12,395 bases of DNA from Chryseobacterium sp. UBA6632 (lineage in GTDB: Bacteria > Bacteroidota > Bacteroidia > Flavobacteriales > Weeksellaceae): contig DKLU01000068.1 in assembly GCA_002455915.1 (NCBI GenBank), positions 1 to 12,395 of the forward strand, in the 5' to 3' direction. The position numbers were made by a program, and so were the translations under genes. Of the stretch, positions 4,472 through 10,800 are shown in pieces; the first letter of the stretch is position 1, and every line of letters begins with the position of its first letter. Under the pieces are notes generated by a model. It searched no databases. It was not told the origin of the DNA and saw only the letters and a program-made list of their open reading frames with translations.

Positions 4472-4488
4472 TAGCTAGTAATTAAATT

Positions 4489-4525
4489 AAAAACCCACTC
4501 TATATTCTTAATGTAAAGGGTTTTT
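4489..4525 (+). terminator. Bidirectional hairpin terminator after the restriction operon
   Basis: AAAAACCC at 4489-4496 pairs with GGGTTTTT at 4518-4525, giving a hairpin with a T run on the plus strand and an A run on the other side. It starts 17 nt past the stop codon of the GmrSD-type gene and would end its transcript. It overlaps the segment that aligns with the ssrA terminator at 7205-7238, so the operon seems to use a captured or duplicated copy of the tmRNA terminator. Confidence 0.75.
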
Positions 4526-4567
4526 AAATTTTAAAACGCATTATAACCTTTTATACCCGTGGAATTT
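4498..4567 (+). repeat. Diverged direct copy of the ssrA 3' end and terminator (putative att remnant)
   Basis: These 70 bases align without gaps to 7211-7280, with 53 identities by hand count. The match covers the right part of the terminator hairpin, the ATAACCTTT stretch, and the GTGGA block that corresponds to the acceptor end of tmRNA; similarity stops just inside the acceptor stem. Direct repeats of a tRNA or tmRNA 3' end are the usual trace of tyrosine-recombinase integration. This copy would be the distal att site of the islet running to ssrA. It is too diverged to be a recent duplication, so the integration is old or the copy came from another strain's ssrA. Confidence 0.65.
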
Positions 4568-4590
4568 GTGTGTACGGAATATACACACAA
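4566..4590. repeat. Perfect 9-bp inverted repeat next to the att remnant
   Basis: TTGTGTGTA at 4566-4574 and TACACACAA at 4582-4590 are exact inverted repeats with a 7-nt spacer. The element starts where the similarity to the ssrA 3' end stops. There is no T tract, so it is not an obvious terminator. A recombinase or regulator binding site is possible, but its function is unknown. Confidence 0.5.
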
Positions 4591-4672
4591 TTTTCTGTAC
4601 TATAACAGGATGAAAGTTGTATACTATTGGTGGCTTTTATAATCAGGTTTTACATCTTAAAAAAAAACATAA

Positions 4673-5021
4673 ATGACAAATATAGATTCTGAATATTCGG
4701 TAGAACATCATTTGTTTGTGGTGGGAATGTTATCAATAAATCTGATGATGTAAGTAAAAAAAAAGAGGGATTATTTTGAGACTATTTTTCTTCAAGAATT
4801 AACAGTATCAGAAACAATGTTCGGTGATAAATATAAGTTTTTTAAAGAGGGTTTAAAACTAAAAGAATTTAGAAGTTTTCCAAAAAAAGAGTTTTCGGAA
4901 AAATCAGGTTTGAGCTTATATAAGATCACACAAATTGAAGATTTATGGATTTAGATCAAAAAAGGCTGAATTAGACCAATATTGGAAGGGTTTAAAAATA
5001 CAGGACTTGATAGAACATTAA
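4673..5021 (+). pseudogene. Decayed paralogue of the HTH gene at 1982-2530
   Basis: Conceptual translation in shifting frames matches the 182-aa HTH protein. The N-terminus MTNIDSEYSVE (from ATG 4673) resembles MNLNSEFSINE. GGNVINKSDD (from 4720) resembles DGNLLSVPDD. FLQELTVSETMFGDKY resembles FLTELNLDQSMFDHEY. LKLKEFR and KSGLSLYKITQIED (to about 4942) match the HTH. GFRSKKAELDQYWKGLK up to the stop at 5019-5021 matches the tail. Three lesions are visible: an internal deletion of about 65 codons after the first 13 or so, a frameshift at or near the A9 run at 4756-4764, and a 1-nt insertion near 4943-4946 that creates TAG at 4952. The HTH is broken and no full product is expected. Confidence 0.8.
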
Positions 5022-5083
5022 TATTTGGAAAACTAAAAAAGAATTTTTAATCTTCATTTTTTTAACATATTGTAGACATAAAT

Positions 5084-5539
5084 ATGAAAGATATTAAGTA
5101 TTATAAACTAGAGGAGATCATGATTAGCGATAAGTATATTGAAAAAACCATTAATGAAATTTTAAAATGGCAAAAAAAATATTTGCAAACAAATAACAAA
5201 AAGGATCTTCGTCAAATGACATTGCAAAATATTTCTGATCTTACAGATATCGATAAATCTGTTATATCACGTATTTGTAAGTCAGTAAAAATAGAGTTAC
5301 TTGATAAATTCATTGACTTAAAATCACTGTTTCATTCAGGTGGTATAGATGGTAATTCAGCTTTTGAAATTTCGAGTATAATGCTTGATTTAATAGTTAA
5401 TGAAGATCCAAAACATCGATATACCGATACCTTACTATGCGAGATTTTAAATGCTAGTGGATATCCAATTTCAAGAAGAACGGTATGTAAATACCGTGAG
5501 GCTCATCTTAAATATCCCAAATATAACAAAAGACATTAA
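5084..5539 (+). CDS. Stand-alone sigma-54 (RpoN) DNA-binding-domain protein
   Basis: A 151-residue protein that matches only the C-terminal part of sigma-54. Residues 45-66 (MTLQNISDLTDIDKSVISRI) correspond to the RpoN helix-turn-helix, which usually reads like MTLxDIA...STVSRV. LKSLFHSGG at 79-87 matches the LKxFFSSG segment. SRRTVCKYRE at 130-139 is the RpoN box (consensus ARRTVAKYRE), which reads the -24 promoter element. The region I activator-contact segment and most of the core-binding region are absent, and there is no room for them upstream, where the HTH pseudogene ends 62 nt away. The reading frame is clean. It could be a regulator that binds -24/-12 promoters without recruiting polymerase, or a fragment still open by chance. 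ATG at 5120 is an alternative start. It is convergent with the minus-strand pair, with 27 nt between the stops. Confidence 0.75.
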   Translation: MKDIKYYKLEEIMISDKYIEKTINEILKWQKKYLQTNNKKDLRQMTLQNISDLTDIDKSVISRICKSVKIELLDKFIDLKSLFHSGGIDGNSAFEISSIMLDLIVNEDPKHRYTDTLLCEILNASGYPISRRTVCKYREAHLKYPKYNKRH

Positions 5540-5566
5540 GGTCCAGCGATACAAGTTTCTTATGTT

Positions 5567-6487
5567 TTAAATCTCCACAATTTCTAACAATTCATAATCT
5601 GTACGTTCATTCAATGTTTTAAATTTTGTCTTATAAACTCGTAAATGAATTCTACAATATTTGTTCAAAAATTTCTTATCATATTCGATCAATTGTTCTT
5701 CATCAAGATCATGACTTATTGATCCTGAAATTTGTTGCCCCTCATCATCAAGAATATCGAATCTATTAGAATTTAATAGCACTCCACGAAAAGTACCGGT
5801 AATAAAAATTTCATTATCCTCTTTAAGTGCAAATGATACTCTACTAGCTGCCTTATCTATTTTTTCCTTTGATAATTCAATATGTACATTACCACTATCC
5901 ATCTTTAAGATAGATCTTTCATTTGAAACCTCCTGTAAAAACCTTTTAAGATTATTTAGGTTTCTTTTTGGAGTTGTTTCGATTGTACTCTCAAATAATT
6001 GGTCACTCCCGGTAGTATTTGCAATCAGGGTAATAACATCTTTCATTGCATCAGAAGTGTCAACTATATCATACAAGTCTTCCTCATCAAAATCTAATCG
6101 TGATAGTTCAATCCCGAAAGATCCTTTTGGTAAGGCAGTTAAAAATAATTCGGCATTGGAACTTTTTCTTGCCCTTCCACGCCTTCCAACTTTTCCATAT
6201 TTGTTAAATGCTAATTGGGTTTTTACTAAACCTTCGAGTGGAGGCATGATCTTACTTAAAAAAGTTGATTTTATACCTTGTGAACCTAAGACCGCATCAC
6301 CACTGAACAGAAATTGAAGAGATGGTTCAAATGATTCTAATGGAATCGATTTAAGTTCATTCTCTATCATTTCAATTCTTTCTTTAAGTCCTTCTGCCAT
6401 TAATGGATGATCACCAACTTTTTCTAACAGTCGCTTTAAATCTATTAGTTGCGTATTTAAATATTGAATTCTATTGTGTAAACTCAT
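5567..6487 (-). CDS. Unrecognised 306-aa partner of the nucleotidyltransferase-like protein
   Basis: I do not recognise this family. The start ATG shares one base with the TGA of the upstream gene (TGATG at 6485-6489), so it is translationally coupled to the nucleotidyltransferase-like protein and probably made in fixed proportion to it. Residues 1-50 are heptad-rich and predicted helical, consistent with a coiled coil. Residues 60-92 follow (FLFSGDAVLGSQGIKSTF, then PPLEGLVKTQLA), with a strongly basic patch at 96-108 (KYGKVGRRGRARK) that could bind nucleic acid. ALPKGSFGIEL lies at 118-128. A beta-rich C-terminal part (about 226-306) has alternating hydrophobics and DDEGQQISGSI, which could form a small barrel. 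There is no signal peptide or membrane helix, so it is cytoplasmic. An antitoxin, effector or substrate-binding role is possible, but none is shown. Confidence 0.8.
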   Translation of the reverse strand: MSLHNRIQYLNTQLIDLKRLLEKVGDHPLMAEGLKERIEMIENELKSIPLESFEPSLQFLFSGDAVLGSQGIKSTFLSKIMPPLEGLVKTQLAFNKYGKVGRRGRARKSSNAELFLTALPKGSFGIELSRLDFDEEDLYDIVDTSDAMKDVITLIANTTGSDQLFESTIETTPKRNLNNLKRFLQEVSNERSILKMDSGNVHIELSKEKIDKAASRVSFALKEDNEIFITGTFRGVLLNSNRFDILDDEGQQISGSISHDLDEEQLIEYDKKFLNKYCRIHLRVYKTKFKTLNERTDYELLEIVEI

Positions 6488-7038
6488 CAGAGTGACTTTA
6501 GATAGTTTAACGCATTTTCATCATCTTTCACTGTATTTAAAGGGATTTTCAACATTCCCTTCCAAATTCCATTCCTCTTGTGAGTGAATAGCTGTAACCA
6601 ATATCTTGTTTGGTCTATAGTAACGTCGGGATCAAAATTAAAGTCAATGGCATAATGATCTACTAAAAATTTCTCTCTTGCCATTTTAGGGCTGAAGAAT
6701 TCTGGAAAAAACGTCTTTGCCATAAATTGATCATTCATTGTTAGTCCACCATAAAAGGTGACAACATCTAAGTCATTCGGATTCCTACCCTCAGATTCTT
6801 CAATATTCTCTAAAAAACTTCCATCTAACCATTGGAAACCCACTTTTATACCACTATTAACAGTCCTTTTTCGAAAATCCAAAAATTTTTGTAAAATCTC
6901 AATTCTTTCTTTTGATGTACTAAATTTTTGACATAATTCAAATGTTGTACACTCAAAAGGAGAAACATCACTTCTATTTGACGGATCTCCTAAGTGTGGT
7001 GGTATGACGTGATTGTGATCAAAATCAGGAATCGGCAT
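6487..7038 (-). CDS. Small nucleotidyltransferase-fold protein (DUF6932-like)
   Basis: A 183-residue protein counted from the ATG at 7036-7038. GSF at 73-75 followed by DLD at 89-91 and AID at 130-132 gives the GS-x(n)-DxD-...-D layout of the pol-beta / MNT-type nucleotidyltransferase fold, so G73, S74, D89, D91 and D132 would form the active site. The opening PIPDFDHNHVIPPHL, followed by a GSF...PNDLDV core, resembles the DUF6932 family, which I recall as NTase-like; this is recognition by eye, not a search. The chemistry is unknown; related folds transfer NMPs to protein, RNA or antibiotics. It is the first gene of a two-gene operon with the 306-aa partner. A longer frame reaches 7191, but its extra 51 residues run over the promoter and repeats, so I reject it. 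Confidence 0.78.
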   Translation of the reverse strand: MPIPDFDHNHVIPPHLGDPSNRSDVSPFECTTFELCQKFSTSKERIEILQKFLDFRKRTVNSGIKVGFQWLDGSFLENIEESEGRNPNDLDVVTFYGGLTMNDQFMAKTFFPEFFSPKMAREKFLVDHYAIDFNFDPDVTIDQTRYWLQLFTHKRNGIWKGMLKIPLNTVKDDENALNYLKSL

Positions 7039-7053
7039 AACTAATTTAAAGGT

Positions 7054-7073
7054 TATTTGTTTTATCAAATATA
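7054..7073 (-). promoter_or_regulatory. Promoter -7 box and overlapping inverted repeat for the NTase operon
   Basis: On the minus strand TATATTTG (7073 to 7066) matches the Bacteroidetes -7 element TAnnTTTG, 27 nt before the ATG. It overlaps a 6-bp inverted repeat, TATTTG at 7054-7059 and CAAATA at 7066-7071, which could be an operator for autoregulation. The -33 TTG is not convincing. Confidence 0.5.
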
Positions 7074-7138
7074 CATATAATACATAAAATGGATAATAAT
7101 GAGGAAAATATTTATGACATAATATAAGATTTATTCTT

Positions 7139-7160
7139 GTTACCACCAGTGTTACCACCA
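7139..7160. repeat. Tandem 10-bp direct repeat GTTACCACCA
   Basis: GTTACCACCA occurs at 7139-7148 and again at 7151-7160, a 12-bp period. It lies between the ssrA terminator and the NTase promoter and abuts the palindrome at 7161-7186. The spacing, about one helical turn, and the position at the edge of the islet fit integrase arm-type sites or a regulator binding site. Function is inferred only. Confidence 0.55.
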
Positions 7161-7186
7161 ACATAATATCTAATGAGATATTATGT
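7161..7186. repeat. Perfect 11-bp palindrome at the islet edge
   Basis: ACATAATATCT at 7161-7171 and AGATATTATGT at 7176-7186 are perfect inverted repeats with a 4-nt spacer. They directly follow the GTTACCACCA tandem repeat and end about 20 nt from the ssrA terminator. There is no T tract, so this is more likely a protein binding site (recombination directionality factor, integrase or NTase-operon repressor) than a terminator. Confidence 0.55.
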
Positions 7187-7204
7187 AACAAAAAGGATCA
7201 TTAA

Positions 7205-7238
7205 AAAAACCTCTATATCATTGATATAAAGGGTTTTT
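7205..7238 (-). terminator. Rho-independent terminator of ssrA
   Basis: AAAAACC at 7205-7211 pairs with GGTTTTT at 7232-7238, with an inner TATATCA/TGATATA stem (7214-7228). Read on the minus strand the stem is followed by a T run, about 35 nt past the tmRNA 3' end. The same structure is found in the diverged copy at 4489-4525. Confidence 0.75.
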
Positions 7239-7280
7239 AGTTGCTAAAAGGTGTCATAACCTTTCATTCCGGTGGAGTTG
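7211..7280 (+). repeat. ssrA 3' end and flank, proximal att-like direct repeat
   Basis: This is the intact partner of 4498-4567: 53 of 70 positions agree in an ungapped alignment. It includes the acceptor strand of tmRNA (7274-7280), the discriminator, the spacer and most of the terminator. As the copy attached to a functional ssrA, it would be the regenerated att site that keeps tmRNA intact after integration. Confidence 0.6.
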
Positions 7281-7672
7281 GAGGGATTCGAACCCTCGTC
7301 CAAACAAGCAATACATAAGCTTTCTACATGCTTATTCTACTATTGATTTTTCGACCGGAGGCAGAGAGTAGACACCCAACTTCCGGCTTATCTTCTGAGG
7401 TTTTCGAGTTTTAGCCAAAGTGTCTAAAACCTTATTTCCGCATTCCTATATCCCAGGATCAAACGCCGCAGAACAGAGCATTTGTGGAATATCTTGCTCC
7501 CTTACTAAAGTCTTCGGGGAAACGCTTGATCTACTATACTTCGATATTAAGCTGCAAGAGCGAACTCTTCGTTGCCAGTTAAAATTTTGTAGCAAGGGAT
7601 TAAAGAGATCGCGCTACGGTTCTCTGCATGCTTACTTACCCATTGACCTTGCTGTCGAAACCAGTCAACCCC
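7273..7672 (-). ncRNA. ssrA: Transfer-messenger RNA (tmRNA)
   Basis: tmRNA rescues stalled ribosomes and tags the nascent peptide for proteolysis, acting with SmpB. The 5' end GGGGTTGACTGGTTTCGACAG (7672 downward) is the classic tRNA-like start. Its acceptor GGGGUUG pairs with CAACUCC (7274-7280) with one G-U. The T arm is seen as GAGGG-TTCGAAT-CCCTC (7281-7297), and the discriminator is A at 7273. The next encoded bases are CCG rather than CCA, so the CCA end must be completed enzymatically. An internal tag reading frame is at 7547-7576. Size is about 400 nt, as usual, and it appears complete. It serves as the integration target for the islet to its left. Confidence 0.95.
7547..7576 (-). other. 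tmRNA proteolysis-tag reading frame
   Basis: Minus-strand codons from GGC (7576) to TAA (7547-7549) encode GNEEFALAA then stop. The ALAA end is the normal signal for ClpXP-type proteases, and the frame sits centrally in tmRNA. The resume codon is inferred as GGC (Gly). Confidence 0.85.
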
Positions 7673-7819: not shown

Positions 7820-10800
7820 TTAATCTCTGTTTTTCAATAATACCCAGCCGTTTAGCATGATTGTCTTTTTGGTAACAGGGTCTTCCCATGATAATTTATA
7901 CCAATAAGTGCCTGTTGGGGCTTCTCTTCCAATATATTTTCCGTCCCAAATGGTGTTTTTAGCACTCGCTTTGAAGATTTCCTTTCCGTATCGGTCAAAA
8001 ATGCTTCCTGTAAAATTTTTGTATTTGCTTAATGGAGTTAAATCAAGCACATCATTTATTCCATCTCCATTGGGCGTGATCGCATTTGATAGAACAAAAG
8101 TGTAGTATTCTGTATAAGCATCACATAAAATACCTCTGTTTCTTACTCTTATAGGATATTGAGTGTTTTTTAAAACATTAGTAAATACATTTGAAGCTTG
8201 CCATATCACTCCATTGTCAATTGAATATTCTAATGGAAGAGGGCTGTTATTTTTAGCTTTAATCGTTAAAGAATTATTATTGTAAACAATTTCTAAAATT
8301 TCAGGAACAATAGTGTATGAAACTTTTGCACTGAAAGTTTTAGAACAGAAACCATTACTTATAGTCACAGAATAGGTTCCTGCCGCGGTCGGGTGAATAA
8401 CCTGTGTAGTTTCTCCTGTACTCCAAGAATAAGTATAACTCGGCCCAGATAGAGCGGTTCCTGCATCTAAATTGGCTTTGTGTCCTTCACAAATTTCAGT
8501 ATCCTGTAAAATGGATGTAATTTCTGGAACAACGTTGATCGTTATGGTTGTAGGGGCTGATGATATACAACCGTTTGCCCCAGTTCCTGTTACGGAATAG
8601 GTTGTGGTCGTTAATGGGGTTACAGTCTGTGTGTTTCCTGAGCCTGATAATCCTGCCCAAACATAGTTTACCGCTCCGGATGCTGTAATGATTGCAGATT
8701 CTCCTTTACAGATGGTCATTTTAGAGCTTGTAAGAATTATGGTGGGTGGAGAAGTATTTTTTACAACATTTACACTCGCTTGTTTTACACATCCGTTCGG
8801 TGTTGCACTTGTGATTTTTAAAGTATAAGTTCCTCCGTTATTTACAGTCGGAGTTAAAGTATTGGCTCCTGAAACAATATTTCCACCTCCCGAAGCTGTC
8901 CATAAATAAGTTGCTCCTGCTTGGTATACCGATGAGGTTGCATCCAACATAATTTGAGGATTTGTACATGTAATTTGCGCCGGATTGGCAATATTCACAA
9001 CAATTAAAGGATCCATTGTCACCGTTACAGATTTTTGATATTGACATCCTAAAGACGTTGTTACGGTTACTGTATACGTTCCCGGAGATGTTATGGTTGC
9101 TGTGGCGCCCGTCGTTCCGTTCGACCATGAAAAAGTATTTCCGGTTCCTTGGGCAGTAGCAGTGAGAATAGTGGATGAATTTTCACAGAACGTCAAATTT
9201 CCTGTTATCTGAAGATTAGGGTCAACCCCGTTTACCACCGTGAAACTCGCTGCACTACTTGTACATGTACCATTGTTATTGGTTAAAGTGTAGGTTCCGG
9301 CAGTCGTAACGGTAATAGATTGTGTTGTTGCTCCCGTAGACCATACATTTCCTGTTGATGCATTAGATGTTAAAGTTACTCCATTACCATTGCAGATGGC
9401 TGGCCCGGAAGCAGTGATTGTAGGAGCTGCATTTGTATTAATCGTTAATTGCAATTGCGCCACTTTCGCACATGTCGCCGATTTTACTCTTACATAAATC
9501 GTTGTATTTCCAGAAGTATAAGTTGTTGGATTATTAATTGTGTTTGAATTTCCCGCCACTGCATCAGCTTGATTCAAATAAAAATCAAATGTCACACCTG
9601 AAGTCGTACTAATCGCAGTTTGAGCAGAAGTAAGATTAAATATCGCGGTTGAAGAATTCGAACATTGACTTAAACTCGAATTTTGCACCACTGGAACCAC
9701 GCCCTGTGTCACCGTGATAGATTTTTGATATTCACAGTTTGCTGGTGTTTTCACTGTCACTGTATATGTTCCCGCTGTTGAAACTGAGATTGTATTTCCT
9801 GTAGATCCATTCGACCAAGTGTAAGTATTTCCTGTTCCAGAAGCAGAGGCTGTTAATTGAGTAGGAGATTCACATAAGACGGTATTTCCTGTAATTTGAA
9901 CATTAGGATTACTTTCTGCAGTAATCGTGATGCTTGCCGGAGCACTTGTACATCCACCGTTAGTATTAGTCACTGTATACGTTCCGGGCGTTGTCACGGT
10001 GATGGATGGCGTTGTAGCACCTGTAGACCAAGTGTTTCCTGTTGCTTGACTTGATGTTAAGGTGACGTTTCCGCCAAAACAGATAGTATTTGAGGAACTT
10101 GTAATCGTAGGAGGAGAAAGGGTAGTAGTGTTAAGTTGTATTTGAGCTTCAGTGTCACATAGGGTAGAAGTAGGATCTTTTATGATGACCTTTATTGTTG
10201 TATTTGTTGAGTATTGAAAATTAGTGGGGTTACTTATAGGTGTTGAGCTTCCCAATATATAGTAAGTAAAGATATAATTGGCTGGATTGCTGACCAATTG
10301 AGAATTAAAGGATGTTAAGTCTACCGTTGCGCTAGAAGAAGCATTTACGCATTTTGTTGCCGTAATAGTATTTTGTAAAAGAGATACTTTATCCACATAA
10401 ATTTTTGCATTTTTAATTGAATGTCGTGATGTTGCACCACCTGTTGAAGCTGAAAAACCAAAATATCCCTGTGTCATATTTACCGCTCCGCCTGACGGTT
10501 GAAAAGATTGGCTGACGATCTGCTGGTTATCTATTTTTACGGTAATAATCCAATTGGCTGCATTGGCAGGATCAATTTCTCCGTTCACTTCTACATGACG
10601 ATAATTTCCGGTAATAAAAGGAATGGTAGATAAAAGATCATTAGAATGATAGGTACTTCCTGTCGTATTATTCATTTCTATATTGGAGCTCACATTATTT
10701 GTGCCATATAGTATATGAACTTTACTCATTAATGACTCTGTGTAATTATTATAAGTATCAAAGCCTATCATAAGGCCTTCTGCATTATTTGGAATTCCTA

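Follow-up and report, generated by a model that had tools for sequence, protein, structure and literature searches.

An overlapping nucleotidyltransferase and partner gene pair in a Chryseobacterium ssrA islet: a putative divergent variant of the candidate system PDC-M63

What is the two-gene pair that lies at the 3' end of the ssrA gene of Chryseobacterium sp. UBA6632, and could it take part in phage defence? We analysed a stretch of 12,395 nucleotides (in the following, the window) in which gene A (6487..7038, minus strand) runs from the ATG at 7038 to the stop codon ending at 6487 and encodes 183 amino acids, and gene B (5567..6487, minus strand) runs from the ATG at 6487 to 5567 and encodes 306 amino acids. 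The stop codon of A and the start codon of B overlap by one base in a TGATG junction (6485..6489, minus strand). The initial annotation of this DNA had taken the junction as translational coupling, and this reading is borne out: the junction is present, and among 55 distinct pairs, a number of them almost the same in sequence, A and B overlap in 47. In all 55 the start of B, taken as the one nearest to the profile start, lies at an offset between -38 and +19 nt from the end of A.

Gene A encodes a DUF6932 protein, covered in a Pfam profile search by PF22014 with 92.4 bits (curated cut-off, 27). Its active-site motif comprises LDGSF (71-75), P87-x-D89-L-D91 and D127, within the overall layout GSF...PxDxD...D127...WKG. 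G73, S74, F75, P87, D89, D91 and K160 are invariant in 55 of 55 distinct pairs, and D127 is present in 53; the GSF...DLD nucleotidyltransferase (NTase) layout noticed earlier is thus intact and conserved. The structure predicted for A (pLDDT 95) has NTase folds as its top matches, with modest scores, so the fold of the 183-aa protein does appear to keep the NTase site; a PDB sequence search with the A profile gave zero matches. Reading frame, profile matches, model and conservation together suggest that A is probably a nucleotidyltransferase with an NTase-type fold and a conserved active site, for which catalysis is predicted.

The partner is harder to place. The model of B has a helical hairpin (residues 3-47), a mixed middle part with a GSFG motif (122-125) and a C-terminus rich in beta structure, as had been expected from the sequence; the informative fold search was that of residues 223-306, which came out as an OB-like domain. 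B matched no Pfam or NCBIfam family at E ≤ 1, and these searches revealed no recognised DNA-binding domain in it, in line with the earlier statement that no characterised pair with this partner is known. Strongly hydrophobic segments are absent from both A and B, in the window as well as in the E. coli prophage locus L106 (maximal 19-residue hydropathy 0.92). The basic patch attributed to B is real (GKVGRRGRARK, residues 98-108) but is not a general feature: among ten aligned B sequences, the window protein and the three nearest to it have the patch, one verrucomicrobial protein has part of it and the other five lack it. A PDB search with the B profile gave 155 weak matches, of which the best 60 all carried the name of a single viral fusion protein (E 0.005 at best), and these were dismissed as chance. 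Residues 109-261 weakly match PADLOC PDC-M32A, another defence candidate (E 3.4e-4), so this portion of B may be common to a second uncharacterised system.

Homologues of the two genes occur together almost without exception, which answers another question raised by the initial annotation. Of 83 locus entries in which A scores at least 90 bits (a limit that excludes the shorter DUF6932 subfamilies; repeated entries for a single place are counted), 80 have B immediately after A. The three entries lacking B are L004, on a plasmid with a transposase-like ORF after A, and a single contig end that was entered twice (L034, L097). The A profile found 38 loci on viral contigs, and in all 38 B is located directly 3' of A, once cut by the contig end. 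Furthermore, pairwise distances among the A proteins track those among the B proteins with r = 0.92 (best of 500 permutations, 0.10); as linked genes have a common history, this means joint descent rather than contact. A and B are a near-obligate two-gene module.

The pair was thought to be undescribed, yet both proteins have catalogued relatives. Window A matches the PADLOC model PDC-M63A (E 3.5e-13; no curated cut-off is given for this model), as do 18 of the 18 viral A members scanned. Window B matches no PDC-M63B model at E ≤ 1, and among 32 B relatives three models matched one protein each (E 0.0025-0.0063). In hhalign, the window B family and the PDC-M63B family align colinearly over 287 columns (97.3%, E 1.7e-11), and a second alignment made of distant B proteins gave nearly the same result (97.0%, E 1e-10). 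In the other direction, a PDC-M63B-family profile finds the B protein of L028 at 8.5e-11 and further ones at no better than 1e-4. Locus L033, with a shorter DUF6932 protein, exemplifies the catalogued form (PDC-M63A, E 4e-56; six PDC-M63B models, best E 8e-118): a DUF6932-type NTase gene is followed by an overlapping gene for a partner of ~310 aa, as in the window, whereas window A is longer (183 versus ~150 aa) and window B is missed by the PADLOC models. The profile-profile matches thus place the window pair in PDC-M63 as a divergent subfamily, with a B that these models fail to detect, and make it a putative variant of a catalogued, uncharacterised candidate system. PDC stands for phage defence candidate (PMC11514479). 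A prophage-borne PDC-M63AB, possibly of another subfamily than the window pair, has been assayed: its deletion in E. coli NILS69 caused no change for ten phages (PMC12409345). A full-text search of the open-licence literature found PDC-M63 in this paper only and no mention of DUF6932. Defence software lists PDC-M63 without a mechanism and half-misses the form seen in the window, and this form is a near-obligate, widely mobile enzyme-partner module.

The surroundings of the pair in the window point to mobility. The ssrA (tmRNA) gene (7271..7672, minus strand; ARAGORN, Rfam RF00023) borders it with its 3' end and points to the pair. The ssrA 3' end with its terminator (right boundary repeat, 7200..7279) recurs as an imperfect copy at 4486..4566 (left boundary repeat; 69-nt ungapped core, 77% identical), so that ~4567-7270 is an islet of ~2.7 kb at the ssrA 3' end. 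The repeat is direct and reaches a local alignment score of 65, compared with at most 29 in 60 mononucleotide shuffles, which supports the ssrA-flanked islet proposed before. The pair is not alone in it, as had been claimed: an ORF on the opposite strand (5084..5539, plus strand) encodes 151 aa, in which the sole domain is of the sigma-54 DNA-binding type (PF04552, E 1.4e-21). No integrase was seen inside the islet. The type III restriction-modification and GmrSD-type genes said to adjoin it were confirmed with Pfam and PADLOC (type III Res and a GmrSD-like gene). Judged by eye, a 182-aa control-type protein encoded at 1982-2530 seems to have a degraded second copy of its C-terminal HTH region at 4760-5050 (plus strand).

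In 60 genomes of the genus, a DNA search with the A-to-ssrA query matched 59, nearly all through ssrA. Most of gene A was matched in one of the 60 only (G102), and 64 bases of it in another (G626); note that a diverged pair could escape a search at the DNA level. In G102, A and B are 90% and 92% identical to those of the window and the pair is located ~6 kb from ssrA, with copies of the ssrA end at 4679-4757 and, adjoining the pair, at 8889-8919 (locus L100), an arrangement that looks like tandem accretion of islets. Extra ssrA 3'-end fragments, some of them near ssrA, can be found in several genomes of the genus (G606, G611, G627, G636; L100, 2285-8919), as if islets had entered at ssrA repeatedly in this genus and accreted in tandem. 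Among 395 Bacteroidota genomes, 24 have a match above the DUF6932 cut-off.

A first sign of a phage association may be seen in the matches to PHROGs families, both with function not assigned (phrog_9194 for window A, E 5e-28; phrog_18731 for window B, E 5e-20). In contrast to the 38 viral-contig loci of the A profile, the B profile retrieved one locus, and B alone gave 11 pattern matches and no relative. Searching 50,697 phage records with tblastn gave no match to window A, window B or two prophage B proteins, so the module is one of IMG/VR contigs and bacterial prophages rather than of those phage records at that sensitivity. Plasmids carry it as well: long A matches were found on five, in four of them with B (Methylobacterium, Paraburkholderia, Bradyrhizobium, Pseudomonas), whereas the Rhizobium lusitanum plasmid lacks B and has, next to A, an ORF that by eye resembles a transposase; a sixth plasmid (Pigmentibacter), with A matched over 15% only, was not counted. 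The 96 neighbours of 13 chromosomal loci include, by PADLOC models, mad2 (5), one type I methyltransferase model (3), mad3 (3) and type I specificity models (2); these are raw counts with no enrichment claimed, and 13 of 18 loci were used, four plasmid loci and L011 being left out. Near the viral loci, the commonest family is the repressor family phrog_4 (9 of 99 neighbours, taken from 125 at 17 of the 38 loci after short and overlapping ORFs had been dropped).

A repressor gene also adjoins the pair in E. coli. Among 5,426 E. coli genomes, 26 (many apparently clonal) carry the pair of locus L061 with 98.8-99.1% identity. The stretch from cI to A lies directly beside the pair in 25 of them, and in the remaining strain, W21, the annotation shows it. 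Three prophage regions that were read have the gene order cII-cro-cI-A-B-...-gamL-bet-exo, with ~310 bases between cI and A in L106. The slot after cI is what we take, from the gene order of lambda, to be the place of rexA-rexB. On viral contigs, the genes upstream of the pair at ten loci, one picked by hand at every locus and not the closest predicted ORF in L063, L065 and L068, were seven CI-type repressors (phrog_4), two endolysins and one without match. In 19 of 38 viral loci, a CI profile detected a same-strand repressor gene no more than 0.9 kb upstream of the pair; the profile was built from seven of these 19, which are hits by construction, and four loci have less than 0.9 kb upstream. 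One more match lies 5 kb away on the other strand. The window itself has no visible cI, the rex-like position being that of the E. coli prophage relatives.

Seven regions of pair-less prophages with the same cI or downstream flank have other contents in this slot: a KilA-N protein (DY612), a 293-aa ORF next to one for a HipA-like kinase that narrowly misses the Pfam cut-off with E 1e-5 (JNQH497 and YZMc10-2), small ORFs (EC20), small ORFs with another repressor (cS100a), or nothing, again with another repressor (EC5); in B18271 the immunity region is absent. In the four compared, the flanks are 86-97% (cI side) and 86-93% (other side) identical to those of the pair-bearing prophage. The slot after cI (L106, 8294-10816; L109, L110, L111, L112) is an exchange site between similar flanks. 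Among the open-licence papers listed in our searches, none reports this pair in the place of rexAB, which of all exclusion slots in phage biology is the most familiar. Its presence there in lambda-like E. coli prophages means that K-12 and the usual phage collections would allow a clean test.

Like lambda RexAB, the pair of these prophages is a two-gene cassette after cI on the same strand and a candidate for lysogen-linked exclusion; unlike RexAB, it has no RexB-type membrane protein, and A is an NTase. A RexAB-type system of P. putida consists of a DNA-binding RexA and a membrane protein RexB (PMC12894663). RexA is not among the fold matches listed for B, nor MenT or AbiEii among those listed for A and B, and these absences exclude nothing. 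The HEPN RNase motif is a conserved R...H. In B the column richest in histidine reaches 35% of 55 rows, so that there is no conserved His and hence no HEPN RNase motif. MntA/HepT is also a two-gene module of a minimal NTase and a partner (PMC7641770), but B is a different protein from HepT. Membership was rejected, as B has no HEPN motif or Pfam match and A does not match the Pfam MNT family NTP_transf_2 (at E ≤ 1 only DUF6932). In AbiE and MenAT an NTase acts as the toxin next to a partner (PMC10435456 and PMC7725324), to which B is unrelated by profile; AbiE was rejected as well, since neither AbiEii nor AbiEi matched A or B at E ≤ 1 in Pfam and PADLOC. The likeness to MntA/HepT and AbiEii drawn in the initial annotation stands at the level of the broad fold and fails at that of family membership.

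Partners of other DUF6932 subfamilies bear on the roles of the two proteins. A hairpin-like ORF of 60-85 aa lies directly 3' of seven shorter DUF6932 relatives (L014, L017, L020 with an internal stop in A, L022, L030, L038, L042), and five loci (L023, L025, L029, L031, L035) have a partner with a hairpin-like stretch and an XRE HTH, all hairpins and the HTH of L035 being judged by eye. All three HTH partners scanned match an IrrE-type peptidase domain, in L023 below the Pfam cut-off. PDC-M63B is the partner at L033, and a 337-aa protein of similar look at L043; L036, L044 and L052 have no clear partner. This survey leaves out weak partial matches (L045-L051, L053) and six listed places without a locus.

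Since the pair travels across distant bacteria and sits in the rex slot of some E. coli prophages, it is probably a mobile anti-phage or toxin-like switch; activity in defence or as a toxin is a plausible candidate role for it. We chose A as the effector mainly because the NTase is constant while the partner is variable and regulator-like. A and B would then act as one two-protein module, possibly a complex, in which A, an active minimal nucleotidyltransferase, is kept inactive by the N-terminal helical hairpin of B. The OB-like domain of B would sense phage-made nucleic acid, nucleoprotein or another sign of infection, whereupon A would move nucleotides onto an essential target, most likely an RNA such as tRNA; growth would halt and the infection abort. 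In prophages the module may serve to exclude superinfecting phages, and in bacterial islets it may be defence cargo. The preserved active site, the co-made dedicated partner, the patchy mobile distribution and the lysogen-linked position fit such a conditional effector restrained by its partner. We put this reading forward tentatively, as the likeliest mechanism but at somewhat less than even confidence. If the NTase is the effector, the pair would be an exclusion system in the rex position that works via nucleotide transfer and not via membrane damage.

The roles could also be reversed, as in MntA/HepT, with B as the toxin and A as an antitoxin that nucleotidylates B; the missing HEPN motif of B and the short or HTH-bearing partners elsewhere, which suit regulators and not toxins, make this unlikely. 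Equally unlikely in our estimate is a stable two-subunit enzyme with no built-in toxicity, in which A acts on nucleic acid brought by B, and what it makes is of use to the prophage or cell, for example in RNA end modification or regulation, instead of to defence. Such an enzyme would agree with the almost constant joint retention of active site and B, with the OB-like domain and with the phage-neutral NILS69 deletion (PMC12409345), but its patchiness (one of 60 genus relatives at the DNA level, 24 of 395 Bacteroidota) and mobility suit conflict systems better than housekeeping. A pure addiction module, with toxin A and antitoxin B stabilising prophages, plasmids and islets and giving no phage protection, seems quite improbable. 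Carriage on just these elements, the two overlapping genes and the HTH-bearing partners of other subfamilies speak for it; against it, window B lacks a recognised DNA-binding domain, and sister prophages hold other cassettes in the slot after cI.

Returning to A as a partner-held effector, we asked how far the hairpin is common to DUF6932 partners. The stand-alone hairpins align with the N-terminus of B at a score of 19.8, which none of 100 permuted controls reached (best, 14.5), and with a second B set at 12.2 (none of 100; best, 11.5). When they were aligned with the HTH partners and with the PDC-M63B hairpin, 15 and 16 of 100 controls did equally well. As permuting columns breaks up heptads and so gives coiled coils of every kind an advantage, a hairpin module common to these partners is kept as a hypothesis only. 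On a wider view, DUF6932 proteins might form a general effector class with exchangeable partners (a hairpin alone, a hairpin with HTH and IrrE-type peptidase, or a hairpin with a middle part and an OB-like domain). The window pair would then be a soluble NTase superinfection-exclusion device of the last form, placed in the rexAB slot and in Bacteroidota islets, where nucleic-acid sensing by the OB-like domain would free the NTase onto RNA; we regard this generalisation as rather doubtful. The loci in which DUF6932 is followed by a hairpin-like/XRE HTH/IrrE-type peptidase protein (L023, L025, L031) are possibly a separate toxin-antitoxin-like class. In L044 (1465-2652), a DUF6932-type domain starts an open frame of 396 aa, the later part of which resembles, by eye, an alpha/beta hydrolase.
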